Shown here: in pieces, positions 26,813 through 50,700 of the stretch
Numbering within the stretch: the first letter of the stretch is position 1
How the letters are laid out: every line of letters starts with the position of its first letter
Source of the DNA: Acinetobacter sp. WCHA45
Lineage (GTDB): Bacteria; Pseudomonadota; Gammaproteobacteria; Pseudomonadales; Moraxellaceae
Length of the DNA stretch: 64,000 nt
NCBI RefSeq assembly: GCF_002165255.2
Contig: NZ_CP028560.1
Location: forward strand, 124,001 to 188,000
Reading direction: 5' to 3'
Made by a program: the position numbers and the translations under genes
Notes under the pieces: model-generated
Told to the model about the DNA's origin: nothing
What the model saw: the letters and a program-made list of their open reading frames with translations, nothing else
The model's database searches: none

Positions 26813-27643
26813 TGTTATTCCTAAGTAGAAATGTCCTACCTAATAACCAAATAGAAATGTCCTATATGGACAATTCCAAGTCAAGCACAGGATTTAGATT
26901 TCGTTCTTTGATTGCTATTTTCTGTGCACGTCTGCTTGGCATCTTTTGAGAACGATTGCGTTTGTTTTGTTGTTCCAGTTCTTCATGCTGTTGTTGGATA
27001 TGATTCAGAACAGCACCCAACCGTTTATTCTCAACAATCTCTCGCTGATTCAGCTGACTTAATTTATCGAAGAGGCTGTAATTGATCTTTCGGCCATCAT
27101 GCATGAGGGCTACAGTACCATCCGGGTATTCCAGGAACTCAAGATACTTACCGATCAACCTTTGATTTTCTTCGGTGTTTTCCAGGAGATATACGCATTT
27201 ATCATAAGTAATCGTCAGGCTATTCGTGACTCTGCGGGGTTCACGCCAAGTAAAAATATCATCTAATTCTTCGGCTGTTTCAGTGATAGGCCGATGTAGA
27301 TCCTTAGGATTAAAAGCCATCTTGGCGAACTTCTGATTGAACTGCTCAATGAAGCAGGGTAGCCAGGCATTAGCTTGCTCAATCGAGCTGATACCTTCCA
27401 GACGCATCTCCTTGATCAGACGGTCCTGAAGGGTTCTGTTGGCACGTTCCACACGGCCTTTGGCCTGTGGTGAATTGGCGAAGATGATATCGATATTCAG
27501 GGTACTGAGTACGCGTCCAAACTGGGTAATCTTGGTGTCTTTCTTGCTGCTTTGATTCACCCTGAAGACTGAATGTTTGTCGCTGTAAAATGCCAACGGC
27601 TTACCATGCTGCTCAACATACAAGCGTGTTGAAATCATATAAT
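26813..27643 (-). mobile_element. ISNCY-family (IS1202 group, ISAjo2-like) copy A, left part
   Basis: Left 831 bp of an insertion sequence whose right part is at 38285-38935; together they make 1482 bp, exactly the length of the intact copies at 42652 and 49186. It starts TGTTATTCCTAAGTAGAAAT. The 5 bp before it (CTGTT, 26808-26812) equal the 5 bp after the right part (38936-38940), so both parts are one insertion. The split point is duplicated as TAAT by the IS3-bounded composite transposon. Naming as ISAjo2-like is from memory of the family. Confidence 0.85.
26862..27638 (-). pseudogene. ISNCY transposase, 3' part (split copy A)
   Basis: Encodes the C-terminal 258 residues of the 457-residue transposase found whole in the other two copies, from MISTRLYVEQHGKPL to the end. 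It carries most of the DDE integrase core (YSDKHSVFRV, then RVERANRTLQDRL). The N-terminal part is at 38285-38876, on the far side of the composite transposon, so no intact enzyme is made from this copy. Confidence 0.88.
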
Positions 27644-27704
27644 AGAGGTGGTTCCACTTGTTTGAACAACTAAAAGCGTATTTATAAGTGATATTCCGCT
27701 CTAG

Positions 27705-28421
27705 TTAAGCCACCTTGTTTTGTTGGGGTAGCTGATCATAGTAAAACTCATTTGGTGTCATTTTGTCTAGACTCGAATGAGGTCGTTTCAGATTATAAAA
27801 CTCAAAATATGCACTCAATTGCTTTTTCGCATCTGTGACACTGCTATAAGCTTTGAGATACACCTCTTCATATTTAACGCTCCGCCATAATCGTTCAACC
27901 ATCACATTATCTACCCATCGACCTTTACCATCCATACTGATTTGAATGCCATTTGATTTCAATACATCAATAAATGCATCACTGGTGAACTGACTGCCTT
28001 GGTCTGTATTCAATATTTCAGGTGATCCATATTTTTCAATCGCTTCATTTAAAGCCGAAATACAAAAATCCACCTCCATACTAATCGATACCCTATGCGC
28101 AAGTACCTTGCGGCTATGCCAATCAATCACAGCACATAAATAAACAAAGCCTTTTGCCATAGGGATATACGTTATATCAGTAGACCACACTTGATTACTG
28201 CGCTGAATAGCCAATCCTTTGAGCAGATATGGATATTTACGGTGAGCTTGATTAGCCTGGCTTAAATTTGGTTTGCAATATAACGCCTGAATACCCATTT
28301 TCTTCATTAAAGTACGTGTATGACGTCGTCCTATATGATGCCCTTGACGATTCAACAAATCACGCATCATACGACTGCCTGCAAAAGGATATTGCATATG
28401 TAATTCATCAATACATCGCAT
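27705..28421 (-). CDS. IS3-family transposase OrfB (integrase domain)
   Basis: Catalytic subunit of the IS3-family element. The DDE core is visible: WSTDITYIPM, then LNTDQGSQFTS, and near the end MVERLWRSVKYEEVY. The ending segment FEFYNLKRPHSSLDKMTPNEF is typical. The first ATG gives 238 residues, but the functional protein is probably an OrfAB fusion made by frameshift from the upstream OrfA. The frame is intact here and cut short in the right-hand copy. Confidence 0.85.
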   Translation of the reverse strand: MRCIDELHMQYPFAGSRMMRDLLNRQGHHIGRRHTRTLMKKMGIQALYCKPNLSQANQAHRKYPYLLKGLAIQRSNQVWSTDITYIPMAKGFVYLCAVIDWHSRKVLAHRVSISMEVDFCISALNEAIEKYGSPEILNTDQGSQFTSDAFIDVLKSNGIQISMDGKGRWVDNVMVERLWRSVKYEEVYLKAYSSVTDAKKQLSAYFEFYNLKRPHSSLDKMTPNEFYYDQLPQQNKVA

Positions 28422-28531
28422 CAGCTTCAGATCTGATGAGCTAACAGGTTTTGGGCGATAATAATAACAACCACGAGAGACTTTCAGTAACTTAGCTTGT
28501 TTAGATACTGAAATCTGAAGTGAGTGATCGA

Positions 28532-28849
28532 TTAACTTTTGTGGTTGAAGCGGCCCAGTTTCTTCAACACACCTTCTAAAAAATCAATTTCTAATGCCTG
28601 CTCACCGATTTTTGCATGTAACTTTTTAAGATCAATGGGAGGTTCTGATGGAGCTTTTGATTGATCGAAAGCTTGTGAGGAAGCTGAGATCAATTGATTT
28701 TTCCAGTCAATAATTTGGTTTTGATGAACATCAAACTCAGAACTCAATTCAGCAAGTGTTTTTTCTGCTTTGATCGCAGCAAGTGCTACCTTAGCCTTAA
28801 AGTCGTTTGAATGATTTCTTCTTGGTCTACGTGCCATAAAATACTCCAT
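28532..28849 (-). CDS. IS3-family transposase OrfA (helix-turn-helix)
   Basis: A 105-residue DNA-binding subunit. The first residues (MARRPRRNHSNDFKAKVALA from the second ATG at 28837) and the helix-turn-helix (TLAELSSEFDVHQNQIIDW) match IS3-family OrfA. A leucine-zipper-like helix (LHAKIGEQALEIDFLEGVL) follows. An identical copy occurs at 37887-38204. Confidence 0.85.
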   Translation of the reverse strand: MEYFMARRPRRNHSNDFKAKVALAAIKAEKTLAELSSEFDVHQNQIIDWKNQLISASSQAFDQSKAPSEPPIDLKKLHAKIGEQALEIDFLEGVLKKLGRFNHKS

Positions 28850-28925
28850 ATATTGATGTTTATAACATCATTTGAGGAGCAGAGTATCACTTATAGGAGT
28901 TGTTCAAATTTCCGGATCCATCTCT

Positions 28926-29270
28926 AATGTTTGTAGTCTTTTGTAGTGCATCCAATAGTCAAATAAATAATTGTGAAACCATGAAGACACATATCACATT
29001 GATATTTATATAAAAATATTATTTGTGATTGGAGGTGATTTTTTTAATTCTATTGATTATTGTGACTCACTACGGAGTTAATTGTCTTTAAGTATTTGTT
29101 TTTAATTGTTTTATTCTTTTAATTATTTTTATTTGATTAGGTGTTGACCTTACCATAATTGGAAAGAATAGAGTTGCTACATCAAGGGTAATGATGTACC
29201 TGATATGAAAGAATAACTTCCGAGCTTATTACCCATTATTTTTTCATAATTGTAGTAAGAGGATAACTCC
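28926..29270. other. Upstream region of the copper genes
   Basis: AT-rich stretch between the left IS3 copy and the DUF305 gene. It holds the CueR-type promoter at 29144-29173 and no gene. Confidence 0.5.
29147..29167 (+). promoter_or_regulatory. CueR-type copper promoter 1 (DUF305 gene)
   Basis: A MerR-type dyad (ACCTTACCATAATTGGAAAGA) lies between TTGACC at 29144-29149 and TAGAGT, with the 19-bp spacer that marks MerR/CueR-activated promoters. It is about 100 bp upstream of the DUF305 gene. Two related sites occur at 30399 and 33859. Confidence 0.75.
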
Positions 29271-29951
29271 ATGAAACACTTTGTTCCAATGTTAATGATC
29301 GGTGCGATTGTATTTAGTGCGGGGTGTTCCTCTTCTGACGCTCCAAAGGAAAATTCAATGAGTGAGAATAAACATGAAAGCCATTCAATGCACCATGATA
29401 TGAATGGTTCAGCTAAAACAGATAATCCATCTACAAATGCCTATATGGAAGTAAATACTCGTATGCACAGCGGAATGGGTATTGATTTCACGGGAAATGC
29501 AGATACTGACTTTATGTTGGGTATGATTCCTCACCATCAGGGTGCGGTTGATATGGCAAAAGTAGTTCTTCAATACGGTTCTGATCCAGAAGTGCGTCAG
29601 CTTGCCGAGAACGTTATCTCTGCCCAAGAGTCAGAAATCAAGATGATGAATGAATGGTTGGCAAAAAACAAAAATCATTCTGGCAGCAAAAATGAAGATA
29701 GCCCATCAACTCAAGCATATATTAAGATCAATGATGAAATGCACGCAGATATGATGGTTCCATTTACAGGAAATGCTGATGTTGATTTCATGAGAGGCAT
29801 GATCCCCCATCATCAAGGTGCAATTGATATGGCAAAAGTAGTTCTTCAATATGGTTCTGATCCAGAAGTACGCCAGCTTGCTGAAGATGTTATCTCTGCC
29901 CAGGAATCAGAAATCAAGATGATGAATGAATGGTTAAGTAAACATAAGTAG
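29271..29951 (+). CDS. DUF305 lipoprotein with two tandem domains
   Basis: A 226-residue secreted lipoprotein: the N-terminus [19 protein letters not shown] ends in a lipobox Cys. It holds two DUF305 domains (about residues 58-128 and 146-225), each with MIPHHQGA and a [12 protein letters not shown] end. His- and Met-rich segments ([10 protein letters not shown]) suggest copper binding. The DNA of the two domains is nearly identical over about 170 bp, so the duplication is recent. The CueR-type promoter upstream indicates copper induction. DUF305 proteins are often found with copper resistance genes, but no activity is established. Confidence 0.82.
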
Positions 29952-29980
29952 ATACTTCTCTATTCGATATTCTTTTAAAT

Positions 29981-30005
29981 GAGGGGCTTTTTAAAGCCCC
30001 TTGTT
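29981..30005 (+). terminator. Rho-independent terminator
   Basis: Stem GGGGCTTT / AAAGCCCC followed by TTGTTTT, between the DUF305 and ferredoxin genes. Confidence 0.65.
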
Positions 30006-30041
30006 TTATCTATAAATTTGATGAATTGAGGATTATGTTAT

Positions 30042-30380
30042 ATGCCAAAAATTATAGTTATTCCGCATGAAAAGATTTGTCCAGAGGGTGCGGAACTTGA
30101 AATTGAAAGCGGAAGTAATTTATGTCGAAGTTTATTGGATCATGGCATTCCCATAGAACATGCCTGCGATTTATCAGGTGCATGTACAACATGCCATGTT
30201 GTTCTGAAAAAAGGGTTCGACAGTTTAGAAGAAATGGATGATGTAGAGGCGGACTTACTGGATCGTGCCTGGGGGCTTACGGCCCAATCAAGACTATCTT
30301 GCCAGGTTAAGGTCCAAGATGAAAACTTGGAGGTAGAAATACCTAAGTACACAGTCAATTATATATCTGAGGGACATTAA
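30042..30380 (+). CDS. fdx: 2Fe-2S ferredoxin of the ISC type
   Basis: A 112-residue adrenodoxin-like ferredoxin, the type that delivers electrons for iron-sulfur cluster assembly by IscS/IscU. The four cluster cysteines are present: the C-x5-C-x2-C set in HACDLSGACTTCHVV, then the last in SRLSCQVKV. Other family marks are ICPEGAELEIESGSNL and LDRAWGLTAQSRLSC. It stands alone between copper genes, without the isc operon. Copper attacks iron-sulfur clusters, so a spare ferredoxin could support repair under copper stress; that role is an inference. Confidence 0.85.
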   Translation: MPKIIVIPHEKICPEGAELEIESGSNLCRSLLDHGIPIEHACDLSGACTTCHVVLKKGFDSLEEMDDVEADLLDRAWGLTAQSRLSCQVKVQDENLEVEIPKYTVNYISEGH

Positions 30381-30398
30381 TTTTACTTTTAATGCTTG

Positions 30399-30419
30399 AC
30401 CTTACAATTATGGCAAGGT
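30399..30419 (+). promoter_or_regulatory. CueR-type copper promoter 2 (CopZ-like gene)
   Basis: Dyad ACCTTACAATTATGGCAAGGT between TTGACC at 30396-30401 and TATATT, spacer 19 bp. It lies about 40 bp upstream of the CopZ-like start. Confidence 0.85.
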
Positions 30420-30460
30420 TTATATTAAACACATCCTGAATAGTAATAGTGGAGTTAAAT

Positions 30461-30649
30461 ATGGAATTTCATGTTGAAGATATGACTTGTGGTGGCTGTG
30501 CCCGTGGTGTAACCAGAGCAATTCAAGCAATAGATGCCAATGCAAAGGTCATCACCGAACCACCCAATCGTAGTGTAAAAGTTGAAACAACTGCAACACA
30601 GCAGCAAATCGTTGAGGCTTTAACCGAGGCTGGTTTTCCTCCTCGTTAA
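30461..30649 (+). CDS. CopZ-like copper chaperone (HMA domain)
   Basis: A 62-residue protein made of one heavy-metal-associated domain. The metal-binding motif MTCGGCA is at residues 8-14. Its likely role is to carry copper(I) in the cytoplasm to the CopA exporter. The ATG at 30461 has a GGAG ribosome site at 30451; an in-frame GTG at 30449 is less likely. A CueR-type promoter sits directly upstream and a terminator follows at 30666, so it is a single-gene unit. Confidence 0.85.
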   Translation: MEFHVEDMTCGGCARGVTRAIQAIDANAKVITEPPNRSVKVETTATQQQIVEALTEAGFPPR

Positions 30650-30665
30650 AAACGGACGAAATGAT

Positions 30666-30695
30666 AAAGCGACTCTCTATTGAGTCGCTTTTTTG
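30666..30695 (+). terminator. Rho-independent terminator
   Basis: Stem AAGCGACTC / GAGTCGCTT followed by TTTT. Confidence 0.7.
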
Positions 30696-30817
30696 TGGGC
30701 AATGAATTATAAGCTCAATATTTAGGAATGTTTGTGATGTTAAATTAGCAGTTATTTGACAATGTAAGTATCTAAAAGAAATGACATATTTTAGTTCATA
30801 GTTATAAATATAAAAAA

Positions 30818-30853
30818 TAGGGAGAAGTAAAATTAATTTTACTTCTCCCTATA
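30818..30853. terminator. Strong hairpin terminator after cueR
   Basis: Perfect 18-bp inverted repeat (ATAGGGAGAAGTAAAATT and its complement). It lies just past the cueR stop and ends the copA-cueR operon. Confidence 0.7.
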
Positions 30854-30861
30854 TCCTATTG

Positions 30862-31320
30862 CTATTTCTTTCGGGTTAAAGGTGAAACGGAAAGCAGGTC
30901 GTTATGATGGTGAACGTCCTTTATTTCATTGTGAGGTTCTTGCAAGCCTTCAAGAATCGGACAGTCGGGTCTATTATCACCAGCACAACAGTCGATTAAG
31001 TCCTTGAGAGTATTCGCCATTTGCTGTAGGTCATTGATACGTTCTTCCAGCTTTTCAATATGACCCTGAGCCAGGCGTTTGACATCAGCACTCTGTCTAC
31101 TGCGGTTATTCCATAAATCGAGTAGGTCTGATATTTCCGCTACTGAAAAACCGAGTTCACGACTTCGTTTGATAAACTTTAAACGTTCAACATCATTTAC
31201 TGAGTAAGAGCGATATCCTGCATTATTACGTCCAGCAGCGGGAATCAGGCCAATCTGCTCGTAATAACGAATCATCTTGGCGGTAACTCCTGAAGCTTTA
31301 GAGACTTTACCAATGTTCAT
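30862..31320 (-). CDS. cueR: CueR-type copper-responsive MerR regulator
   Basis: A 152-residue MerR-family activator. The N-terminal helix-turn-helix is MNIGKVSKASGVTAKMIRYY, a long dimer helix follows, and the metal loop CCAGDNRPDC near residue 112 carries the two cysteines expected for copper(I) sensing. A longer frame to 31425 overlaps copA, so I use the ATG at 31320, which has an AGGAGG ribosome site. It is 10 bp after copA and probably in the same transcript. The three matching dyads at 29147, 30399 and 33859 are its likely targets. Confidence 0.88.
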   Translation of the reverse strand: MNIGKVSKASGVTAKMIRYYEQIGLIPAAGRNNAGYRSYSVNDVERLKFIKRSRELGFSVAEISDLLDLWNNRSRQSADVKRLAQGHIEKLEERINDLQQMANTLKDLIDCCAGDNRPDCPILEGLQEPHNEIKDVHHHNDLLSVSPLTRKK

Positions 31321-31330
31321 CATATCCTCC

Positions 31331-33817
31331 TTAGCCTTGACTGACGGATGGTGACTGGAATCGACGTAAACGTAATGCATTACCGAGTACAAATACACTG
31401 GACAAAGCCATTGCACCTGCTGCAAAGATTGGGGACATCAGTATTCCATAGGCTGGGTACAATATACCAGCAGCAACAGGAATCAACATGGTGTTATAGG
31501 CAAATGCCCAGAATAAGTTCTGATGAATATTACCAATCGTTGCTTTGGACAAGGCAATCGCATTGGCAACACCTTGTAAGTTCCCTGACATTAACACGAC
31601 ATCGGCAGATTCAATTGCAACATCTGTACCTGTACCAATCGCAAGTCCCACATCAGCTTCAGCCAAAGCTGGCGCATCGTTAATACCATCACCCACAAAA
31701 GCGATATGGCCATATTTTGCTTTCAGCTCTTTAACCGCACTAACTTTACCCTCTGGTAAAACTTCAGCAATCACTTCATCAATACCCAATTGTTTGGCAA
31801 TCGCTTGAGCAGTACGAACATTGTCACCAGTAACCATTGCCACCTTAAGCCCTAATTGGTGTAGAGCCTTAATCGCTGCTGGCGTTGTGGATTTGATTGG
31901 GTCGGCAACTGCAATAATTCCTGCTAGTTCGCCATCGACAGCAACATAAAGAGGGGATTTACCCTCATCACCAAGACGCTGAGCTGTAACAGCAAATGGA
32001 GCAACATCAATACCAAGTTGAACCATATAACGGTCTGCACCAATATTGATTTTTTCATTACCATTGATGGTTGCATAGACACCCATACCAGTGACTGAAT
32101 CAAAGGTATCGACTTTAGGTAGAGCTAGGTTTTCACTTTTTGCCGCATCAACAATTGCTTTAGCAATCGGATGTTCAGAACGGGATTCGACAGCCGCAAC
32201 CATGCCTAGAACATAATCACGCTCAAACAATTGGGTTACTTCAAAGTCAGTCAGCACAGGATGACCCTCTGTCAACGTCCCTGTTTTATCAACTGCAACA
32301 ACTTTAGCATCTTTTAATAGTTGTAAGGCTTCACCTTTACGGAACAACACTCCTAACTCTGCACCACGACCTGTACCCACCATAATTGAGGTTGGTGTCG
32401 CTAATCCCATTGCACACGGGCAGGCAATGATCAGCACTGCCACAGCATTAACCAACGCAAAGGTTAAGGCTGGTGATGGACCAAAAATAAGCCAGACTAG
32501 GAATGTAAGTACTGCGGCAATCATCACCGCAGGGACAAACCATAAGGTAACTTTATCCACCACAGCTTGAATCGGCATTTTAGAACCCTGTGCTTGCTCA
32601 ACCAAACGAATGATTTGAGCCAGCATAGTTTCGCCACCCACCGCCACAGCGGTAAAGGTCAACGTGCCATTCTGGTTAATGGTGCCGCCTACCACATCAC
32701 TGCCGATGCCTTTCTCAACAGGGATTGGTTCACCCGTAATCATGGATTCATCAACAAAACTTTTTCCATCAGTGACTTGACCATCGACAGGGATTCTTTC
32801 ACCTGGTTTCACAATGATAATGTCATCTGCAACCACTTGGTCTAGTGCAATATCTACCATTTGGCCATCGCGTAAAACATGGGCAGTTTTGGCCTGTAAG
32901 CTGACTAAACGCTGGATTGCTTCAGATGTTCGCCCTTTGGCTTTTGCTTCAAGAAAACGACCCAGTAAGATTAATGCCACAATCACCGCAGCAGCTTCGT
33001 AATATACATTTACCGTTCCTGTGGGAAGGATGTTGGGTATGAATGTGGCAACAATAGAAAATAGGTAAGCTGCTAATGTACCAACCGCAACCAGCGAGTT
33101 CATATCAGGTGCTAAACGGAGTAATGCAGGCAAACCTTTTAGATAGAATCTTCGTCCTGGAATAACTAAAACCAACGTGGTCAGGATGAATTGTAAATAC
33201 CAGCTATTCTGCATCCCAATAGTTTGATCAATCAGTTGATGAACACCAGGGATAAGGTGAGATCCCATTTCCAAAATAAATACAGGCAAAGCCAATAGGG
33301 TTGCAAGAATCAAATCACGCTTAAGTTCAGCACGTTCTTGATCTTTTTTCTCAAGCAGCTCTGTCTGGTCAGGAATAGAAGCTTGAATTTCTGTGGCATC
33401 GTAACCAGCTTTATCAATTGCGGTAATCAAGTCATCGACATTTGCTGAACCACTGACCGTTGCACGCTCAGTCGCAAGATTGACATTGGCCTCTTTTACA
33501 CCTGCAACGGCTTTAAGGGCTTTTTCGACACGACCTACACAACTAGCACAGGTCATGCCTTTAATTGATAATTCAATATTATTTGCGGGCACGTCATAAC
33601 CTGATTGTTCAATGGCATGAACCAGTACCTGACGATCCACAGGCTGATCAAGTACAATATCTGCACGTTCTGTCGCTAGATTGACCGAGGCAGACTGTAC
33701 ACCATCAACTTTTTTGAGTGCTGTTTCAACACGCCCAACACAGCTGGCACATGTCATCCCTTCAATTTTTAATGTAACTTTCATATTATTAGAAAGCTTA
33801 TCTGTTGCCTTTCCCAT
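31331..33817 (-). CDS. copA: CopA, copper-exporting P1B ATPase
   Basis: An 828-residue inner-membrane pump for copper(I). Two N-terminal HMA domains each carry GMTCASC (about residues 19-25 and 85-91). The family-defining CPC is in [12 protein letters not shown], the phosphorylated Asp in DKTGTLTEG, the HP motif in SEHPIAKA, and the hinge in [14 protein letters not shown]. Eight transmembrane helices fit the layout. The start at 33817 is chosen; a later ATG at 33784 would remove 11 residues. The CueR-type promoter at 33859 drives it and cueR follows. Confidence 0.93.
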
Positions 33818-33858
33818 AAGATATACCTATAGTGCTTACCCAATTATTAAGAGCATAA

Positions 33859-33879
33859 ACCTTGCCATTATGGGAAGGT
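33859..33879 (-). promoter_or_regulatory. CueR-type copper promoter 3 (copA-cueR)
   Basis: The most symmetric of the three dyads: ACCTTGCCATTATGGGAAGGT. On the minus strand TTGACC and TATGCT stand 19 bp apart around it. It is about 40 bp before the copA start. Confidence 0.88.
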
Positions 33880-33937
33880 CAAGGGTAGAATATGTAAACA
33901 TATATATTTTCTAAATAATAGGAATTTAAGTATTAGT

Positions 33938-34252
33938 ATGAATTTTAATAATCACCCGATACCATTATCTCAAGATGAGATTATGTCTTTAGCTGAAACA
34001 TTTCGGCTATTAGGTGATGCTTCACGACTTAAAATTCTACTTTTTTGTATGCGGGGGCCTAGTTCAGTAGGTGAAATCAGTGATGCTCTTGATTTATCCC
34101 AATCTTTAGTCAGTCATAATCTTCGTTTATTGCGTTCAGCTCGTTTAGTCAAAGGCGAAAGACAATCTAAACAAGTATTTTATGAGATTGATGATTTACA
34201 TGTTAGTCAGGTTTTATTAGATATGGCAAGTCATATTAGTGAGGAGCACTAA
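33938..34252 (+). CDS. ArsR/SmtB-family metal-responsive repressor
   Basis: A 104-residue winged-helix repressor. The recognition region is SVGEISDALDLSQSLVSHNL. The C-terminal helix has D-x-H-x10-H-x2-E (in DDLHVSQVLLDMASHISEEH), the zinc site of the SmtB/CzrA group; the N-terminal Cys site of CadC/ArsR is absent. Zinc or a similar divalent metal is therefore the likely signal. It is divergent from copA. A palindrome before the CDF exporter gene (37240) has the form of an operator for this family, which suggests that exporter is its target. Confidence 0.82.
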   Translation: MNFNNHPIPLSQDEIMSLAETFRLLGDASRLKILLFCMRGPSSVGEISDALDLSQSLVSHNLRLLRSARLVKGERQSKQVFYEIDDLHVSQVLLDMASHISEEH

Positions 34253-34476
34253 TTTATAGTAGTACGTAATGTATTGCAAAAATATCTAAATTAAATAACT
34301 TTAAGGGGAAAGAGGGTTATAGGAATTCTTTATTTTTATTACTCTAAACAAGAAATATATCATGCATTTATTTAAGTTATCAGTATCATCTACAAAAAGT
34401 TAAGATCAAGGGCATATAATTAAGAAATGTCTAGCTATATGCCTTGATATCTATTTGAGGAAAGTGCTATCTGTTT
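34253..34476. other. Gap between the ArsR and TPR genes
   Basis: AT-rich sequence between two convergent genes. I see no gene and no strong hairpin. Confidence 0.4.
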
Positions 34477-36165
34477 TTAACAGCAACTTGTAGTGTTATC
34501 TTCAAATGCACTTAATCGGCAGAAACAGGATGCTTCAATATTAATATCAGCCGAGGCAAGTGCTATATCACGTTGCAGCGAAATATCTCGAGCTTCTTTC
34601 TCTAGACCTAGTTTTGCTAAACACTCATAAAGTCCATGAAGACTCCATACATTGTTAGGGCGAATTCGGCGACGTCCAAGGTCACCTTCTAGCCCCAGTT
34701 CAATCCGATATTCTTGGGCTGCTACTTCAAAGTTTCCTTGTTCCATATTAAGTGCGCAGAATGCATGCCGAACTGGTTGTAACCAAGCTGGAGGATCACA
34801 ATAAGGAAGAGCATCTTCTAATTTAATGCCTTCTCGCAAGATTGCGAATGCTTCTTTCGTATTACCTTTACGATACTCAATTTCGCCATGAATCATTTTG
34901 GCAGCAATTTTTAAAGCTTCGACCTCTTTAACAGGTATAGAGTTAAAGCGCTCTTCTGATACATTAGCTACTGCTTTTATAAAAGACTCTCTTTCTTTTT
35001 CGGCCTCTTTAACTCTTCTTAATGAAGCAAATGCTATGCCTTTTGCGTAGTGAATCATTGCGGTTGTGGAACTATATAGACCTTTATCTTTAGGTAGCTC
35101 AAGTTTCAGAATATCTTCCCACATGCCAAATCTAATCATAACATGTGGTAGTGTTGTGCAATGGCTTTCAGTTAAATTAGCCATTGGCGGTGTAGTGATA
35201 TGTAGTACTTCGGGTGTTAAAATGTCATTGATACGATGAGCCATAAATAACGCTTCCTGTGATTTACCTGCCATCATTGCACCATAAGCACCTACCATTA
35301 AATTATGAACGCGATACAAGATATTCCAACCACCTGGATTCTTTTCTCTAGAAAAATATCTTTCATCGGCTGCGATTGCATCAAGATTAGAATAAACCAC
35401 TCGACGCCAATCTCCGCATGCATTATCAATATGTGTGGACATATGGGCTAAATGTGACCCATCAGGTGATAAATTACGAAGGTTATCAGCAGCTGGCAAT
35501 GCAACTTCAGGATAAGGTGACATTTCCATTAAATGTATATAGAGATGATTAATTACAGGATGACGATTTGCCCCAGGTTTAGTGAAAGCAACTTCAAGCA
35601 CGTTTCTAGCTTCAACTGTACCTAAACCTATGGCTTCACCGGTATCTAAATCCCACAATTTACGAGGGCTCAAGCACATGAGTGCATCTGCAAACATTGC
35701 AGCTGCATCAAGATCATTAGAATATTTTTCATAAAATGATCTCATAGCTTGAGCATATGCAAAATTCAGCTCATGAAAGTCTTGTTCATCTATAGTCACG
35801 TGTTTTGGAAAGCGTGGAGCAAGGGCATCAATTAAATCTTTCTCAAATTGTGTCGCATTATGAGTCGCTGCTAACTTTGCTTGTTCCATAATTTCATTAA
35901 TATATGGAATGGTATTCTGTAAGTCTGAAGGATCAAATAAATGCCAAGCTTTATTGTAATTTGGACCAGATGCAAAGGCGATGCCCCAATAAGCCATTGC
36001 GCATTTTGCATCATGTTCTAGAGCTTTCTTAAAACAATTTATGGCTTCACTCGGATTGAAACAATATGTCCATAATAAGCCACGATCAAACCAAAGTTGA
36101 GTATCAGGAGATGACGTAGTTATTTGACGCTGGTAATCTCCTAAATTGTAGTATTTATCAGACAT
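34477..36165 (-). CDS. TPR-repeat protein of unknown function
   Basis: A 562-residue soluble protein with tetratricopeptide-type helical repeats: WFDRGLLWTYCFNPSEAINC and CAMAYWGIAFA near the start, and others near residues 420 and 480. It has no signal peptide and ends SAFEDNTTSCC, a Cys pair that could bind metal. The ATG at 36165 has an AGGAGA ribosome site; a longer frame to 36234 overlaps the exporter gene. It follows the CDF exporter by 40 bp on the same strand, so the two probably form an operon. Function unknown; scaffold or metal-stress roles are guesses. Confidence 0.7.
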   Translation of the reverse strand: MSDKYYNLGDYQRQITTSSPDTQLWFDRGLLWTYCFNPSEAINCFKKALEHDAKCAMAYWGIAFASGPNYNKAWHLFDPSDLQNTIPYINEIMEQAKLAATHNATQFEKDLIDALAPRFPKHVTIDEQDFHELNFAYAQAMRSFYEKYSNDLDAAAMFADALMCLSPRKLWDLDTGEAIGLGTVEARNVLEVAFTKPGANRHPVINHLYIHLMEMSPYPEVALPAADNLRNLSPDGSHLAHMSTHIDNACGDWRRVVYSNLDAIAADERYFSREKNPGGWNILYRVHNLMVGAYGAMMAGKSQEALFMAHRINDILTPEVLHITTPPMANLTESHCTTLPHVMIRFGMWEDILKLELPKDKGLYSSTTAMIHYAKGIAFASLRRVKEAEKERESFIKAVANVSEERFNSIPVKEVEALKIAAKMIHGEIEYRKGNTKEAFAILREGIKLEDALPYCDPPAWLQPVRHAFCALNMEQGNFEVAAQEYRIELGLEGDLGRRRIRPNNVWSLHGLYECLAKLGLEKEARDISLQRDIALASADINIEASCFCRLSAFEDNTTSCC

Positions 36166-36205
36166 TAAAGTCTCCTCATCAGTGAATAACAATAAAGATT
36201 TAAGG

Positions 36206-37210
36206 TTAGTGATTATGTCCAGCGTGTGGATCAATTTGAGTTGGGTTTTCTAAGCTACAAGTACTATTGCCTTGCCAATCAATGGCTATAGTTGGATGTT
36301 CAATAGAAAATTTGGATTTTAGCTCATTCTCAATGTTGAGAGTTAATGTCGCGAGGTCAACTCCATCTTTGGGTTTGACATGCAACGTTGCCATAGATCT
36401 ACCTGATGTAATCATCCAAATATGTATATGGGTAATTTTTTCAATACCACTTACATTTTTCAAAAGATATTCAGTGATCTCTTGGGCATTAGCATTCTCA
36501 GGAGCACCCTCAAGTAAAATATGAAGAGTACGTTTAAATAAAGACCATGCGCTGCGTAGTACAAGTAAAGAAACTAGAACAGATAAAATTGGATCGATAG
36601 GAGTCCAGCCTGTGTACCAAATCACTATGGCAGCAATAATTGCTCCAACAGAGCCGAGTAAATCGCCCATTACATGGAGAATAGCTCCTTTAACATTGAC
36701 ATGTTCTGTATCGCCTCTTGTTAAGTACCATAAAACAAATAAGTTAACGAGCATACCTATAATAGCAACGATAAACATCGGTCCTGCCATGACAGGTTGA
36801 GGTGATTGAAAGCGTTCAATAGCCTCATAAATAATCCATCCAACGATTGCGAATAATGTAAGAGAATTCATTAAGCCAGCAATAACTTCGAATCGCATGT
36901 ATCCAAATGTTTTTGAATTATCTGCAATGCGGCGACCGAAACGAAAGGCAGCATAAGCTAAACCTAAGGCAACGGCATCTGTAAGCATATGCCCTGCATC
37001 AGCCAGAAGTGCGAGTGAACCAGAGATGATTCCTCCAGTGGCTTCTACAAGCATGAACCCGAAAATGATAAAAAACGAAATCAGAATTTTTCTTTCGTTT
37101 CCGTTACTCACATCAGGAACATGTGAATGATCATGACCTTCATGCGAATGATCATGACCTTCATGCGAATGATCATGACATTTATGATTGTGATCGCGTT
37201 GATTACTCAT
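36206..37210 (-). CDS. czcD: Cation diffusion facilitator (CzcD/ZitB-like) metal exporter
   Basis: A 334-residue inner-membrane exporter that swaps a divalent metal, most likely zinc, for protons. The N-terminus is His-rich with three HEGHDHSH-type repeats, and the C-terminus ends DPHAGHNH. Six transmembrane helices are visible. The metal site appears as LLADAGHMLTDA in helix II and its partner HVMGDLLGS in helix V (H-x3-D). The C-terminal cytoplasmic domain (about 210-300) contains THIHIWMITSG. The operator-like palindrome at 37240 lies 30 bp before the start. Confidence 0.88.
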   Translation of the reverse strand: MSNQRDHNHKCHDHSHEGHDHSHEGHDHSHVPDVSNGNERKILISFFIIFGFMLVEATGGIISGSLALLADAGHMLTDAVALGLAYAAFRFGRRIADNSKTFGYMRFEVIAGLMNSLTLFAIVGWIIYEAIERFQSPQPVMAGPMFIVAIIGMLVNLFVLWYLTRGDTEHVNVKGAILHVMGDLLGSVGAIIAAIVIWYTGWTPIDPILSVLVSLLVLRSAWSLFKRTLHILLEGAPENANAQEITEYLLKNVSGIEKITHIHIWMITSGRSMATLHVKPKDGVDLATLTLNIENELKSKFSIEHPTIAIDWQGNSTCSLENPTQIDPHAGHNH

Positions 37211-37239
37211 GTATAAAAACCTAACATGTATATATTTTT

Positions 37240-37263
37240 ACATATGAATATATGTTCATATGT
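37240..37263 (-). promoter_or_regulatory. ArsR/SmtB-type operator of the CDF gene
   Basis: Palindrome ACATATGAATATATGTTCATATGT, containing the TGAA-N6-TTCA core of ArsR/SmtB-family operators. A similar half site (ATATGTTCATTTG) lies near 37532, next to the truncated IS. Confidence 0.6.
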
Positions 37264-37562
37264 AAAAATTGTCAAATTTAATTTATTAATTTTAATATAA
37301 TCAATGGCATGTGCCATTTTTGAGCTAATAGGGAATCAAATTTTCTAAAGTAATACTGTTTTTACTTATTCTAAGAGAAATTTCTACTTAGGATAAAATG
37401 AATAATTTGACAGTCTAATACTGGAGGGATATTGCATGAATTTAATTTCCATAGACGGAGGTATGTTTTATAAAGCTGAAAAAACGGACTATTAAACTTA
37501 TAGAAATTCACTTTTTAATAATTCATATAAATATATGTTCATTTGTATAATCTATTCAGATC
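37264..37562. other. AT-rich gap before the truncated IS3 copy
   Basis: No gene larger than about 20 codons. It holds a second partial ArsR-type half site near 37532. Confidence 0.4.
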
Positions 37563-37776: not shown

Positions 37777-37886
37777 CAGCTTCAGATCTGATGAGCTAAC
37801 AGGTTTTGGGCGATAATAATAACAACCACGAGAGACTTTCAGTAACTTAGCTTGTTTAGATACTGAAATCTGAAGTGAGTGATCGA

Positions 37887-38204: not shown

Positions 38205-38280
38205 ATATTGATGTTTATAACATCATTTGAGGAGCAGAGTATCACTTATAGGAGTTGTTCAAATTTCCGGATCCATCTCT

Positions 38281-38935: not shown

Positions 38936-38940
38936 CTGTT

Positions 38941-39079: not shown

Positions 39080-39964
39080 TTATATAACTCCCAACTGAGC
39101 TTTTGCTCCAACGATAAGGCTTTCATTTTGAGTTTCTAAGGCAAATAAACCATACATCAAAGGAGAGGCCGCTGCTCTTTCTAAAGTCTGTTCATATAGT
39201 TTATTCCAAACTTTACCCCCTAGTTTTTCATACTCGATGATTAGAGTTTTGAGGCTTTCTTCTCCAAACAAAGTTACATGCCCAGCAAAATCAATCGCTG
39301 GGTCATCTATATGGGCTGTTGACCAATCAATAACGCCTGAAACAGCTCCATCCTTTGAAGCTAGTACATGCCCAGCATATAAATCGCCATGTATAAATTG
39401 GGTGAAATCTGCCCATAGAACATCATTATCCAACCATTTTCTGTAGCGGGTTTCCAATTGCTCACTTATACCAATTTCAGATTTTACTAACTGCAAATTG
39501 TTTGCTATTTCAGGTCTTAAATCTGAAGGTTTCATAATTTTCAAATCATTTTCCCGAACTTCTTTTTCAGGAATACTATGGATTTCAAATAAGGTTTTTG
39601 CCAAAGATGTTATGTATTTCGGGCTATCTTTGTCCATATTCCAAATTATTTCATAGGTTTCAGCATCCAAATTTAAAACAGGATTATCTTTAAGTATGGG
39701 ATAAGCCACTAATTCTGTAGATGAAATTCTCCAATCAGGAACCTCTACAGAAAGATGTTTTTTTACCAATTCTAAAATGCGTTTTTCTTTCTTGATTTGT
39801 TCCCTCATGCCATCACGACGAGGAATACGCAGCAACCATTGTTGCCCCTTTGTATCAAGAGCAAAAACGACCTTAAAATCAATGCCCATTTCATTGAAAT
39901 TCATTTTGTCCGTAAGCAACAAGCCGTGTGCTTCAGCAAGTGATTGAATATCTTGAATTGTCAT
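39080..39964 (-). CDS. mph(E): Mph(E), macrolide 2'-phosphotransferase
   Basis: A 294-residue kinase that inactivates macrolides by phosphorylating the 2'-hydroxyl of the desosamine sugar. The kinase-like catalytic loop is FIHGDLYAGHVL near residue 190 and the metal-binding Asp is in GVIDWSTAHIDDPAIDF. Length and sequence match Mph(E) as known from Acinetobacter plasmids. It starts 55 bp after msr(E) and is probably co-transcribed with it. Confidence 0.95.
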   Translation of the reverse strand: MTIQDIQSLAEAHGLLLTDKMNFNEMGIDFKVVFALDTKGQQWLLRIPRRDGMREQIKKEKRILELVKKHLSVEVPDWRISSTELVAYPILKDNPVLNLDAETYEIIWNMDKDSPKYITSLAKTLFEIHSIPEKEVRENDLKIMKPSDLRPEIANNLQLVKSEIGISEQLETRYRKWLDNDVLWADFTQFIHGDLYAGHVLASKDGAVSGVIDWSTAHIDDPAIDFAGHVTLFGEESLKTLIIEYEKLGGKVWNKLYEQTLERAAASPLMYGLFALETQNESLIVGAKAQLGVI

Positions 39965-40019
39965 TTTTAATTTCCTTTAAAGAGTTCAATAATTAATGTT
40001 CGGATTAGATTGGCTATCA

Positions 40020-41495
40020 TTAACAATCTCTCTCAAAAGTCTTGATGATTTTGTGGTCTTTGATCTCGTAGATAATGTCAGCAATATTATCGACCAATTG
40101 CTTGTCATGAGATACGAAGATAATAGTTCCTGCATAGGACTTCATCATTGTTTCTAATGCGGCAATACTTTTTAGGTCAAGATAGTTTCCTGGTTCATCC
40201 ATAAGCAAAATATTATATTTTCCTAAAAGCATTTTGGATAAAAGCAGTTTGATGATTTCACCTCCCGATAAGTCGGATAAGTTTTTTTGAATATCATTCG
40301 CTCCGATCCCCATTGAAGCCAATACTGCACGAATTTCCGCAACTGTGTACTCGCACTCTTCCTGCATAAAGGAGAGCACAGATTTATGCGTGTTAAATTT
40401 ATATCCTGTTTGTGTAAAGTAGCCAATTTCAGCTTTTGGAGATATGGTTAATCCATCAGCACGTTCTGATATCATTTTTAACAAGGACGTTTTCCCTGTT
40501 CCATTCGATCCAGTTATAGCGACTTTAGCGCCAAGCGGTATTATAAAGTTAGCGTCATCAAAGATAGTACGGCTACCAAATTTTAAGCTCAGACCATCTG
40601 CCGTAATCGGGAACTTATTGTGCAGTTCTAGGGCTGAACTTTGACGAAAACGAATAGAACGCAAATGCTCTGGTGCTTGAATATCTTCTAATGCAGCCAA
40701 ACGCTTTTCCATACTCTTAGCTGCCTGATACAGTTTTCTTTGCTTGGTGCCAGTCATTTTTGCATGCCCAAGTCGTCCAGCACTTTCGGTAGAGTTTTTG
40801 GATTTTTCTCCTTTTTTCTTATTGTCTAATCGATTAGCTTGCTGGCGTTTTTCTTGCACAGCAGATTCTAATCGCTCCCGTTCCTTCATCATCAGCTCAT
40901 ATTCTACGGCTTGGTGTTGTCGCTCTTCTTCTTTTTGACGCAAGTAATCCGAGTAACCACCCCAATATTCCGTAATTTTACCGTCTTTTAACTCCCATAT
41001 CTTGTCTACAACCATATCAAGAAAATATCGGTCATGACTGATAACAAGTAATGCTCCATCAAATGCTTTAAGTTGACCAATAAGTAGATCTATTCCATTG
41101 AGATCAAGGTGGCTGGTTGGTTCATCCGCTAGAATGCCATGTACTTGTTGGGAAAATGCGGCAGCAATTTTTGCACGAGTTTCCTCTCCGCCACTCATTG
41201 TGTCGTTTTGTACATTGGAAACACCAAGGCGAGATAACATTGCCCGGTCTTCGACCGTTTCTATTTCGATTCCGCCCAGTTGGCTGATATGTGCAAAATC
41301 ACCAAAACGCTGTAATGTCGCTTCGGCTAAAACAATTTCGCCATTAAGTACTTTGAGTAAACTACTCTTTCCTGCTCCGTTATCACCCACAAGACCAATA
41401 CGGTCATAAGAGTGAATTTCCAATTCATCAATATCCAAAACATCACGCCCAGCATAATCCAAGCGTATGTTTCTCGCTTTAATAATTAAACTCAT
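40020..41495 (-). CDS. msr(E): Msr(E), ABC-F ribosomal protection protein
   Basis: A 491-residue ABC-F protein that displaces macrolides and related drugs from the ribosome; it is not a transporter and has no membrane segments. Two ATP-binding cassettes are present: Walker [10 protein letters not shown] near residue 37 and GSNGTGKTS near residue 330, with signatures [10 protein letters not shown] and [10 protein letters not shown]. The charged linker between them (about 180-280) reaches the drug site. It is the first gene of the msr(E)-mph(E) pair. The leader upstream contains a hairpin and short peptides that suggest attenuation. Confidence 0.95.
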
Positions 41496-41918: not shown

Positions 41919-41946
41919 AATTAACATAATACACCTTATACGAATA
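41919..41946 (-). other. pdif site 2
   Basis: AATTAACATAA-TACACC-TTATACGAATA, i.e. a D-to-C site on the plus strand. Together with site 1 it flanks the msr(E)-mph(E) module in inverse orientation, the arrangement described for pdif modules. Confidence 0.88.
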
Positions 41947-42574: not shown

Positions 42575-42651
42575 GGACTCTTTATACGTCAATGGCGTAT
42601 TTGAATTTTAGCAGTTTCCATAACAAAAAACGAGAGCTGGTAGATCTCTCT

Positions 42652-44133
42652 TGTTATTCCTAAGTAGAAATGTCCTACCTAATAACCAAATAGAAATGTC
42701 CTATATGGACAATTCCAAGTCAAGCACAGGATTTAGATTTCGTTCTTTGATTGCTATTTTCTGTGCACGTCTGCTTGGCATCTTTTGAGAACGATTGCGT
42801 TTGTTTTGTTGTTCCAGTTCTTCATGCTGTTGTTGGATATGATTCAGAACAGCACCCAACCGTTTATTCTCAACAATCTCTCGCTGATTCAGCTGACTTA
42901 ATTTATCGAAGAGGCTGTAATTGATCTTTCGGCCATCATGCATGAGGGCTACAGTACCATCCGGGTATTCCAGGAACTCAAGATACTTACCGATCAACCT
43001 TTGATTTTCTTCGGTGTTTTCCAGGAGATATACGCATTTATCATAAGTAATCGTCAGGCTATTCGTGACTCTGCGGGGTTCACGCCAAGTAAAAATATCA
43101 TCTAATTCTTCGGCTGTTTCAGTGATAGGCCGATGTAGATCCTTAGGATTAAAAGCCATCTTGGCGAACTTCTGATTGAACTGCTCAATGAAGCAGGGTA
43201 GCCAGGCATTAGCTTGCTCAATCGAGCTGATACCTTCCAGACGCATCTCCTTGATCAGACGGTCCTGAAGGGTTCTGTTGGCACGTTCCACACGGCCTTT
43301 GGCCTGTGGTGAATTGGCGAAGATGATATCGATATTCAGGGTACTGAGTACGCGTCCAAACTGGGTAATCTTGGTGTCTTTCTTGCTGCTTTGATTCACC
43401 CTGAAGACTGAATGTTTGTCGCTGTAAAATGCCAACGGCTTACCATGCTGCTCAACATACAAGCGTGTTGAAATCATATAATCAAAGGCTGATTCTGATT
43501 CACAGAAGCGTAAATGCTGCAATTTTCCTGTAGCATCATCGATAAACACCAGCAGACAGCATTTAGCAGCGCGTCCTTCAAACCAGTCATGATATGAGCC
43601 ATCAATTTGGATCAGTTCACCAAAGCAATCCCGGTTGTAACGAGGCTGATACGGGCGTTTCAGGCGCTTGGATCGAGGAATCCATAAGTCAGCTGCAATC
43701 ATCCAGGAACGCAGGGTTTCTACTGAAAGATCGAATCCATGTACGGTGGTGAGCTTTTCATGCGCTAAAGTGGGTCCGAAACCATGGAGTTGGTCAGAAA
43801 CAATATTGAGGCACTTGAGTCTGAGTTCTTCAGGAAGTTTGGAATTGCTGATTTGGCCACGACCGGCATGGGCTAATGCAGCGGGACCTTGAGCTTTGTA
43901 TTTCTGCAGTAAGCGTCTGATCTGACGTTCTGAAATATGAAGTAGCTGAGCAGCCTGGGATTGAGTTATGCGTTGATCACAGATTTCTTGCAAGACCGAC
44001 AATCGTTTAAGTTCTTTATCCGACATAGACACCAACATATCAAACCGTCCGCTAACGAAATTGCAAAAGTGCATATTCTAAAAGCGGACATTTTTACTTT
44101 GGAGAAACCGGACATTTCTATTTTGGAGTTACA
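42652..44133 (-). mobile_element. ISNCY-family (IS1202 group, ISAjo2-like) copy B
   Basis: Complete 1482-bp element. Ends are TGTTATTCCTAAGTAGAAAT and (inverted) TGTAACTCCAAAATAGAAAT, with further internal repeats of AGAAATGTCC at each end. A 6-bp target duplication CTCTCT flanks it (42646-42651 and 44134-44139). The right end is 6 bp from the XerC arm of the pdif at 44140. Confidence 0.9.
42701..44074 (-). CDS. ISNCY-family transposase, copy B
   Basis: A 457-residue transposase. The N-terminal helix-turn-helix (ITQSQAAQLLHISERQIRRL near residue 37) is followed by a DDE integrase core with Asp in LIQIDGSYHDW near residue 160, Asp in YSDKHSVF near residue 219, and Glu in KGRVERANRTL near residue 262. 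Identical to the copy at 49235. A start 15 codons later (MSDKELKRLS) is possible. Confidence 0.9.
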   Translation of the reverse strand: MHFCNFVSGRFDMLVSMSDKELKRLSVLQEICDQRITQSQAAQLLHISERQIRRLLQKYKAQGPAALAHAGRGQISNSKLPEELRLKCLNIVSDQLHGFGPTLAHEKLTTVHGFDLSVETLRSWMIAADLWIPRSKRLKRPYQPRYNRDCFGELIQIDGSYHDWFEGRAAKCCLLVFIDDATGKLQHLRFCESESAFDYMISTRLYVEQHGKPLAFYSDKHSVFRVNQSSKKDTKITQFGRVLSTLNIDIIFANSPQAKGRVERANRTLQDRLIKEMRLEGISSIEQANAWLPCFIEQFNQKFAKMAFNPKDLHRPITETAEELDDIFTWREPRRVTNSLTITYDKCVYLLENTEENQRLIGKYLEFLEYPDGTVALMHDGRKINYSLFDKLSQLNQREIVENKRLGAVLNHIQQQHEELEQQNKRNRSQKMPSRRAQKIAIKERNLNPVLDLELSI

Positions 44134-44139
44134 CTCTCT

Positions 44140-44167
44140 GTTTCGCATAACAGCCATTATGTTAAAT
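44140..44167 (+). other. pdif site 3
   Basis: GTTTCGCATAA-CAGCCA-TTATGTTAAAT, orientation C-to-D. The lysE stop codon (minus strand, 44164-44162) lies inside its XerD arm. Confidence 0.88.
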
Positions 44168-46895: not shown

Positions 46896-46923
46896 AATTA
46901 ACATAATACACCTTATACAAAAT
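46896..46923 (-). other. pdif site 4
   Basis: AATTAACATAA-TACACC-TTATACAAAAT, orientation D-to-C on the plus strand. The first 22 bases match site 2. It borders the araC-lysE module on one side and the OXA-58 module on the other. Confidence 0.85.
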
Positions 46924-47803: not shown

Positions 47804-49093
<1,290 letters not shown>

Positions 49094-49175
49094 TTGTTCA
49101 AAAGTCATATTTTACCTCGGAGAAACCGGACATTTTTATTGGTGAGAATATAGACACTTTAAATGGGTTCTAACA
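49094..49175 (-). mobile_element. Remnant end of a diverged ISNCY-like element
   Basis: About 80 bp resembling the right end of the ISNCY copies: it shares GGAGAAACCGGACATTT and the preceding AAAAG...CATATTTTAC, but then diverges and ends GGGTTCTAACA. It is the leftover of a related but different element that had inserted beside the same pdif before copy C did, and it truncates ISAba3. Confidence 0.6.
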
Positions 49176-49185
49176 CTCTCTGTGG

Positions 49186-50667
49186 TGTTATTCCTAAGTA
49201 GAAATGTCCTACCTAATAACCAAATAGAAATGTCCTATATGGACAATTCCAAGTCAAGCACAGGATTTAGATTTCGTTCTTTGATTGCTATTTTCTGTGC
49301 ACGTCTGCTTGGCATCTTTTGAGAACGATTGCGTTTGTTTTGTTGTTCCAGTTCTTCATGCTGTTGTTGGATATGATTCAGAACAGCACCCAACCGTTTA
49401 TTCTCAACAATCTCTCGCTGATTCAGCTGACTTAATTTATCGAAGAGGCTGTAATTGATCTTTCGGCCATCATGCATGAGGGCTACAGTACCATCCGGGT
49501 ATTCCAGGAACTCAAGATACTTACCGATCAACCTTTGATTTTCTTCGGTGTTTTCCAGGAGATATACGCATTTATCATAAGTAATCGTCAGGCTATTCGT
49601 GACTCTGCGGGGTTCACGCCAAGTAAAAATATCATCTAATTCTTCGGCTGTTTCAGTGATAGGCCGATGTAGATCCTTAGGATTAAAAGCCATCTTGGCG
49701 AACTTCTGATTGAACTGCTCAATGAAGCAGGGTAGCCAGGCATTAGCTTGCTCAATCGAGCTGATACCTTCCAGACGCATCTCCTTGATCAGACGGTCCT
49801 GAAGGGTTCTGTTGGCACGTTCCACACGGCCTTTGGCCTGTGGTGAATTGGCGAAGATGATATCGATATTCAGGGTACTGAGTACGCGTCCAAACTGGGT
49901 AATCTTGGTGTCTTTCTTGCTGCTTTGATTCACCCTGAAGACTGAATGTTTGTCGCTGTAAAATGCCAACGGCTTACCATGCTGCTCAACATACAAGCGT
50001 GTTGAAATCATATAATCAAAGGCTGATTCTGATTCACAGAAGCGTAAATGCTGCAATTTTCCTGTAGCATCATCGATAAACACCAGCAGACAGCATTTAG
50101 CAGCGCGTCCTTCAAACCAGTCATGATATGAGCCATCAATTTGGATCAGTTCACCAAAGCAATCCCGGTTGTAACGAGGCTGATACGGGCGTTTCAGGCG
50201 CTTGGATCGAGGAATCCATAAGTCAGCTGCAATCATCCAGGAACGCAGGGTTTCTACTGAAAGATCGAATCCATGTACGGTGGTGAGCTTTTCATGCGCT
50301 AAAGTGGGTCCGAAACCATGGAGTTGGTCAGAAACAATATTGAGGCACTTGAGTCTGAGTTCTTCAGGAAGTTTGGAATTGCTGATTTGGCCACGACCGG
50401 CATGGGCTAATGCAGCGGGACCTTGAGCTTTGTATTTCTGCAGTAAGCGTCTGATCTGACGTTCTGAAATATGAAGTAGCTGAGCAGCCTGGGATTGAGT
50501 TATGCGTTGATCACAGATTTCTTGCAAGACCGACAATCGTTTAAGTTCTTTATCCGACATAGACACCAACATATCAAACCGTCCGCTAACGAAATTGCAA
50601 AAGTGCATATTCTAAAAGCGGACATTTTTACTTTGGAGAAACCGGACATTTCTATTTTGGAGTTACA
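49186..50667 (-). mobile_element. ISNCY-family (IS1202 group, ISAjo2-like) copy C
   Basis: Complete 1482-bp copy, identical to copy B as far as I compared. Target duplication is 5 bp, TGTGG (49181-49185 and 50668-50672). The right end is 5 bp from the XerC arm of the pdif at 50673. Confidence 0.9.
49235..50608 (-). CDS. ISNCY-family transposase, copy C
   Basis: Same 457-residue helix-turn-helix plus DDE transposase as in copy B, with all motifs intact. With two intact genes in the window the element can be considered active or recently active. Confidence 0.9.
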   Translation of the reverse strand: MHFCNFVSGRFDMLVSMSDKELKRLSVLQEICDQRITQSQAAQLLHISERQIRRLLQKYKAQGPAALAHAGRGQISNSKLPEELRLKCLNIVSDQLHGFGPTLAHEKLTTVHGFDLSVETLRSWMIAADLWIPRSKRLKRPYQPRYNRDCFGELIQIDGSYHDWFEGRAAKCCLLVFIDDATGKLQHLRFCESESAFDYMISTRLYVEQHGKPLAFYSDKHSVFRVNQSSKKDTKITQFGRVLSTLNIDIIFANSPQAKGRVERANRTLQDRLIKEMRLEGISSIEQANAWLPCFIEQFNQKFAKMAFNPKDLHRPITETAEELDDIFTWREPRRVTNSLTITYDKCVYLLENTEENQRLIGKYLEFLEYPDGTVALMHDGRKINYSLFDKLSQLNQREIVENKRLGAVLNHIQQQHEELEQQNKRNRSQKMPSRRAQKIAIKERNLNPVLDLELSI

Positions 50668-50672
50668 TGTGG

Positions 50673-50700
50673 ATTTCGTATAAGAGATTTTATGTTAAAT
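50673..50700 (+). other. pdif site 5
   Basis: ATTTCGTATAA-GAGATT-TTATGTTAAAT, the most canonical of the sites, orientation C-to-D. It closes the OXA-58 module and opens the Abi/GIY-YIG segment. Confidence 0.9.

Follow-up and report, generated by a model that had tools for sequence, protein, structure and literature searches.

The window analysed here, a 64,000-nucleotide stretch of Acinetobacter sp. WCHA45 (positions 124001-188000 of the 190-kb contig NZ_CP028560.1, in a 3.09-Mb genome), carries three copies of the insertion sequence (IS) ISAba71, each beside a pdif site, and raises the question of what brings one element to the same kind of Xer site three times over. A first-pass annotation of the sequence had placed the three copies 5-6 bp from the XerC arm of a pdif site in a single orientation, and had proposed that the element recognises the Xer site or the Xer complex. 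The geometry is borne out, every coordinate proving exact by motif match, and the proposal draws support from the window, the host genome, a genus-wide survey and a control element, ISAba14. The results indicate that the single DDE transposase of ISAba71 very probably directs the element to dif-like sites, inserting it at the outer edge of their XerC arm.

Three ISAba71 insertions at pdif sites

The window contains two intact 1482-bp copies (B, 42652-44133, and C, 49186-50667) and one split copy (A, 26813-27643 plus 38281-38935). All lie on one strand, with the transposase gene on the minus strand, and exact end-motif matches place their left ends at 26813, 42652 and 49186 and their right ends at 38935, 44133 and 50667. 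The transposase-start ends, referred to below as Xer-facing ends, are turned towards the XerC arms of three pdif sites, which were identified by consensus match on the plus strand and all run C-to-D, reading away from the IS: site A (38941-38968, ACTTCACATAA GAAATT TTATGTTAAAT), site B (44140-44167, GTTTCGCATAA CAGCCA TTATGTTAAAT) and site C (50673-50700, ATTTCGTATAA GAGATT TTATGTTAAAT), with 1, 0 and 0 mismatches, respectively, to the consensus used. The gap between IS and XerC arm measures 5, 6 and 5 bp for copies A, B and C, and target duplications flank each element on both sides, namely CTGTT for copy A (26808-26812, equal to 38936-38940), CTCTCT for copy B (42646-42651 and 44134-44139) and TGTGG for copy C (49181-49185 and 50668-50672). 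Opposed pdif sites (D/C, minus strand, consensus matches) are located at 41919-41946 and, with 1 mismatch, at 46896-46923, so that copies B and C lie inside the C-type modules closed by these sites, as expected if insertion always occurs on the C side.

A search of a plasmid collection matched the copies at 99.8% identity over 1482 bp to NZ_KY617771, the plasmid from which the name ISAba71 derives (PMC10132070). At more than 95% nucleotide identity, the copies belong to ISAba71, in the ISAjo2 group of the IS1202 family. The transposase open reading frames (ORFs) of copies B (42701-44074, minus strand) and C (49235-50608, minus strand), supported in copy B by the ORF, profile, end motif and alignment, encode a 457-aa protein that scores 492 bits against the NF033594 profile ('ISNCY family transposase', cut-off 250) and carries catalytic residues D158, D219 and E263, with Q270 at E+7. 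This agrees with the transposases of the ISAjo2 group, which span 441-457 aa with a DDE triad and a glutamine seven residues past the glutamate. The 1482-bp length likewise agrees with a group of 1481-1482 bp elements that have TGT/ACA outer bases and imperfect terminal inverted repeats (TIR) of 24-26 bp, 20 of 24 TIR positions agreeing in the ISAba71 copy, as do the 5- or 6-bp duplication, the XerC arm 5-6 bp off and the orientation of the transposase-start end towards it. Inspection by eye revealed a second, internal repeat near each end, putatively bound by the transposase (TAGAAATGTCCTA twice at the distal end and a GGACATTT repeat at the Xer-facing end). Among ORFs of 80 aa or more, ISAba71 has a single long one and no second, and its specificity must therefore reside in the transposase together with the host Xer site or complex.

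Insertion sites in the host genome and across the genus

Allowing up to 2 mismatches, 28 dif-like sites were found in the 3,092,259 bp of the host genome and none with a reversed-pattern control, and the probability that a random insertion falls at a spacing of 5-6 bp in the correct orientation is about 9e-6. Six of the seven ISAba71-like Xer-facing ends in this genome nevertheless lie 5 or 6 bp from an XerC arm. Among the six is the end of a copy at the chromosomal dif, which has a duplication of its own, ATAATA. Another belongs to an identical ISAba71 spanning the ends of a 6132-bp contig (G000:C3), with CCTGG on both sides of the element; since this duplication matches across the contig ends, the contig is probably a circle. 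The seventh end, that of a truncated element, has no dif nearby.

The survey covered 175 Acinetobacter genomes, with about two candidates scored per genome and part of the matches listed examined. ISAba71-like DNA matches were present in 107 of these genomes, and matches to a query from the second subgroup (1481 bp long, with a 444-aa transposase and about 75% identity to ISAba71 at the DNA level) in 106, many of them short or cross-subgroup in either case. By its size and identity, we take this second query to be ISAba32-like. The 226 loci yielded 232 Xer-facing ends, 173 of them distinct by context, and 160 were evaluable once 13 had been left out (11 at contig ends and 2 lacking an ACA end). 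The first-pass annotation had suggested that distance and orientation be counted in other genomes, and had held that insertions lying mostly away from dif-like sites would speak against recognition. Among the matches listed, 120 of the 160 ends have an XerC arm 3-7 bp away (sites with up to 3 mismatches), while none of the 160 adjoins an XerD arm and none of the 118 readable distal ends lies near an arm of either kind. The XerD side and the reverse orientation were accordingly rejected as alternative targets, the transposase-start end facing the XerC arm in every dif-adjacent case found. About 22 further ends are stacked on a relative, bringing those at a dif-like site, directly or through a stack, to roughly 142 of 160; this figure incorporates corrections by eye to 21 automatic 'stack' labels, two of which (L074, L028) are not ordinary stacks, and to three loci labelled 'none' (L068, L189, L009) that are. 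The control ISAba14 (30 loci) had no dif-like site at 3-9 bp from any of 60 ends, and 2 such sites within 150 bp.

The duplications provide a measure of where the strands are joined. An exact duplication of 5 or 6 bases was identified in 58 of the 89 dif-adjacent elements with a readable distal flank, and its length equals the spacing in all 58 (in the ISAba71-like subgroup, 28 of 5 bp and 7 of 6 bp; in the second subgroup, 23 of 5 bp). The duplicated bases hence fill exactly the gap between element and arm, which places one strand joint at the outer edge of the XerC arm; the other joint lies 5, sometimes 6, nucleotides further out. This one-base variation is found mainly in one subgroup: among cases at 5 or 6, a spacing of 6 was observed in 15 of 56 ISAba71-like and 1 of 59 second-subgroup cases (Fisher 7e-5, a rough value, as the genomes are related). 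One further element of the 89 shows a 3-base match, which was taken as chance. For ISAjo2, duplications of 5 and 6 have been listed, with no rule equating duplication and spacing in the available text (PMC10132070).

These observations suggest a mechanism in which XerC bound to its arm would serve as the reference point and would dock the transposase in one orientation. The pdif site would be left intact by the insertion and could be used again, so that later elements may insert between the resident and the XerC arm, pushing the older one outward. Recognition of the arm DNA alone, with no need for the XerC protein, would give the same pattern. A transposase that reads the XerC-arm DNA, with XerC uninvolved, would be compatible with L020, where the element sits beside a perfect XerC arm (duplication GATTG) in the absence of a proper XerD arm at normal spacing. 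Nonetheless, the outer arm bases vary among targeted sites, and the elements at L127 and L201 lie beside degenerate C arms accompanied by good D arms, suggesting that the Xer complex, and not the arm alone, can serve as the target. Relatives outside the genus also weigh against reading of the arm DNA alone. Five matches exceeded the family cut-off and the DNA of four was examined: in L227 and L228 the XerC arm lies 5 bp off, with the end position judged by eye, and two of the four have different arms, TATGCGCATAA and ATTCCGCATAA, at an equal 5-bp spacing. Direct reading of the arm DNA appears rather unlikely, and a transposase guided by XerC on its arm is our tentative preference.

Several observations weigh against XerC-directed insertion as a general rule. 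About 18 of the 160 ends, sorted by eye, are at neither a recognisable dif nor a stack, and at least three of them (L050, L133, L078) belong to elements flanked by perfect duplications of 5 bp at a site with no resemblance, or only a remote one, to dif. No exact duplication was found in 30 of the 89 elements with a readable distal flank, which we interpret as a sign of later rearrangement. Outside the genus, no dif was seen beside two of the four relatives examined (L231, L232). ISAjo2 has been reported within lpxA and mlaD (PMC7827689) and, in one instance, 27 bp from a C/D site, another copy lying 5 bp from such a site (PMC12907356). The ends at neither dif nor stack include L020, with a C arm only, and L127 and L201, with a degenerate C arm and a good D arm, as well as L028/L200 and L072, in each of which two Xer-facing ends face each other 5 bp apart with no dif between them; the others are L033, L035, L006, L116, L089, L097, L205, L208 and L074. 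At L020, the XerD half is replaced by other sequence and the spacing is abnormal; an element may have integrated at dif there.

That the three IS-pdif pairs in the window are copies of one unit, spread by Xer recombination or plasmid rearrangement, could be argued from their identical IS sequences (copies B and C over 1482 bp, and the pieces of copy A to the matching parts of B) and from the role of pdif sites, which are thought to move modules in such plasmids (PMC10132070), but it is refuted by three different duplications each matching on both sides of its element, by the differing pdif spacers, by the separate duplication of the chromosomal-dif copy and by 500-bp flanks that align only at the pdif sites (26-29 bp, right side) and at one 18-bp left-flank match (E 0.004), leaving it a negligible probability. 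With flanks common essentially only at the pdif site, the insertions are independent, as the first-pass annotation had deduced from the duplications. Chance placement was likewise rejected, on the probability per insertion, the number of dif-like sites and the ISAba14 control.

Stacked elements and subgroup bias

If the pdif site remains reusable, successive insertions would leave elements stacked outward from the XerC arm. An element was counted as stacked if the end of a relative, recognised by agreement with a known element end at 16 or more of 22 bases, lay 3-10 bp outside its distal end. This applies to 29 of the 89 dif-adjacent elements, the count adopted here; under a less stringent motif it was 31, and the junction matched the duplication in 22 of them. 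In 19 of the 29 stacks (10 do not conform) the junction bases contain or equal the duplication of the younger element, and 17 of these 19 have a gap of 5-6 bp, corresponding to the arrangement older element, 5 bp, younger element, 5 bp, XerC arm. The far side of the younger element is here the end of another element, indicating that the target is defined by its Xer side alone. A relic of this type is present in the window at 49123-49175, 10 bp (CTCTC plus TGTGG) outside copy C: it comprises the terminal 53 bp, on the Xer-facing side, of an ISAba32-like element of the second subgroup (92% identity to query positions 1429-1481). The plasmid has a further copy of this 53-bp relic at G000:C5:48014-48066, where exactly 5 bp (CTCTC) separate it from another pdif site.

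Scanning the 175 genomes for junction patterns returned 61 matches in four classes (19, 19, 20 and 3). Applying the 16/22 rule on both sides kept 42 (3, 19, 18 and 2) and rejected 16 of the 19 first-class matches; a first sorting by eye had kept 40. Own-subgroup junctions account for 3 and 2 of those kept, and other-subgroup junctions for 19 and 18. Removal of repeated contexts left 38 junctions (3, 17, 16 and 2), 33 between subgroups and 5 within one (Fisher 1e-5; the genomes being related, this and the following values are rough). Stacked neighbours thus mostly differ in subgroup, which suggests subgroup-specific exclusion, although loss of same-type tandems by recombination fits about as well.

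The latter explanation holds that tandem copies collapse by homologous recombination, or that sequential invasion by the two subgroups favoured cross pairs. Tandem 1.5-kb direct repeats are unstable, and where the outer element is long, at about 500 bp or above, the stacks comprise 11 cross-subgroup and no same-subgroup junctions (0, 5, 6 and 0; Fisher 0.002), as collapse predicts. The bias persists, however, where the outer relic offers little homology, being shorter than about 400 bp or too small to yield a DNA match (3, 12, 10 and 2, or 22 cross and 5 same; Fisher 0.002). This relic subset leans towards exclusion of its own subgroup by the resident end, with the caveat that truncation after stacking would let collapse explain it too, and that the value is a rough one from related genomes. 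On balance, we give loss or invasion history an even chance of accounting for the scarcity of same-subgroup stacks.

Subgroup-specific exclusion in ISAjo2-group elements, whereby an element whose end lies beside the XerC arm keeps out further insertions of its own subgroup and still admits the other, is put forward only tentatively. In such a scheme, the transposase would probably bind the resident own-subgroup end and cover the landing zone, and the two subgroups would queue alternately, with the youngest element beside dif. Resident elements of the Tn7 and Mu type lower nearby insertion of their own kind, a phenomenon known as target immunity. If true, such exclusion would amount to transposition immunity in a minimal form that depends on a single protein, acts locally and is specific to the end, with no TnsC- or MuB-like partner.

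Two other features of the stacks were recorded. The outer relics in L320, L326, L327, L328, L302, L354 and L355 measure about 20-33 bp, roughly one terminal repeat, and lie beside the younger element. In the stacked pairs at L063 and L192, the bases flanking the pair on its outer and inner sides are almost the same as each other and do not match the junction between the elements, a pattern suggestive of movement of the pair as a single block or of gene conversion.

Later rearrangements and relation to known elements

Both pieces of copy A, the distal one spanning element positions 1-831 (26813-27643; end motif, 100% identity to these positions, identical to copy B) and the Xer-facing one positions 828-1482 (38281-38935; end motif, element alignment, identity to copy B), bear one outer duplication, CTGTT. 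The sequence parting them is flanked by a 4-bp repeat, TAAT (27640-27643 and 38281-38284). It consists of an ISAba14-type IS3-family element (27644-28925, minus strand; transposase frames 27705-28421 and 28532-28849, minus strand; rve and HTH_Tnp_1 domains, end matches, name taken from annotated NZ_CP135155), followed at 28926-38280 by a metal/copper region (28926-37564; Pfam P-type ATPase, cation efflux and DUF305) and a partial second ISAba14 ending at 38280 (IS3 end at 38269-38280). The common outer duplication and the ISAba14-bounded metal region between the pieces indicate that copy A is one insertion that was later split.

Related plasmids contain parts of this region in other arrangements. 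The A. pittii AR3676 plasmid NZ_CP135153 harbours an intact ISAba71 flanked on the left as copy A is and on the right as copy C is, and the 19.7-kb circular record NZ_CP135155 contains the metal region, at 100% identity, and the mphE-to-OXA-58 stretch, without copy B. This distribution is consistent with recombination between ISAba71 copies. At about position 3001 of NZ_CP140709.1 (L261), no IS is present and the sequence runs from the left flank of copy B straight into the pdif site of copy C, two bases short of the duplication; recombination and then near-precise loss of the element is a possible origin of this junction. The pdif modules beside copies A and C contain macrolide phosphotransferase and ABC-F genes of the mphE/msrE type and a class D beta-lactamase gene, of the OXA-58 type by annotated relatives (genes at 39080-41495 and 47804-48745).

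ISAba71 resembles Tn7, through TnsB, in its TGT/ACA ends, its internal binding sites (putative here) and its insertion in one orientation beside a fixed site. The target of Tn7 is attTn7, and that of ISAba71 is the Xer site. Tn7-type targeted transposons are characterised by TnsABC plus TnsD or TnsE; unlike them, ISAba71 possesses one long ORF and no TnsA, TnsC or TnsD gene, as also stated in PMC10132070, where the ISAjo2-group transposase is modelled on TnsB.

Xer-site targeting by ISAba71 itself is already known. Similar reports for IS1202-group elements, mentioned in the first-pass annotation, do exist: Harmer, Pong and Hall 2023 (PMC10132070) describe this very element with the same spacing, orientation, duplication and use of the chromosomal dif, and propose contact with XerC. 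Their ISAba71 and ours are alike in length (1482), TIR (20/24), TGT...ACA ends, 5-bp duplication and location 5 bp from the XerC arm. Their sample comprises three examples per IS, with more for ISAba71, in comparison with the genus-wide counts given here, and the available part of that paper contains no such counts, no rule equating duplication and spacing with its subgroup difference, and no stacked elements. In GR13 plasmids, ISAso1, ISAso2 and relatives, the two named elements being other members of the group of ISAba71, were found at the XerC ends of pdif sites with 5-bp duplications and termed 'dif site hunters' (Moran et al. 2022, PMC9455709). None of five terms for these elements occurs in a study of Xer in A. 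baumannii (Nucleic Acids Research 2025, PMC11705084). Among the papers listed by our literature searches, none points to stacking or exclusion; the stacking bias is the one result that may be new. Siguier, Rousseau, Cornet and Chandler 2023 (Plasmid 127:102696), known to us by its title, reportedly describes an IS1202-family subclass that targets XerCD sites and could overlap.

By targeting Xer sites, insertion sequences become linked to the dif modules in which Acinetobacter carries resistance genes. Elements of the ISAba71 type mark pdif sites, furnish modules with direct repeats at which recombination can occur, and also insert at the chromosomal dif. To this, the present analysis adds a quantified rule, in which one joint is set by the edge of the XerC arm and the duplication is as long as the spacing, together with a pattern of stacking, and both make testable the contact between transposase and XerC and the possibility of immunity exerted by a one-protein insertion sequence.

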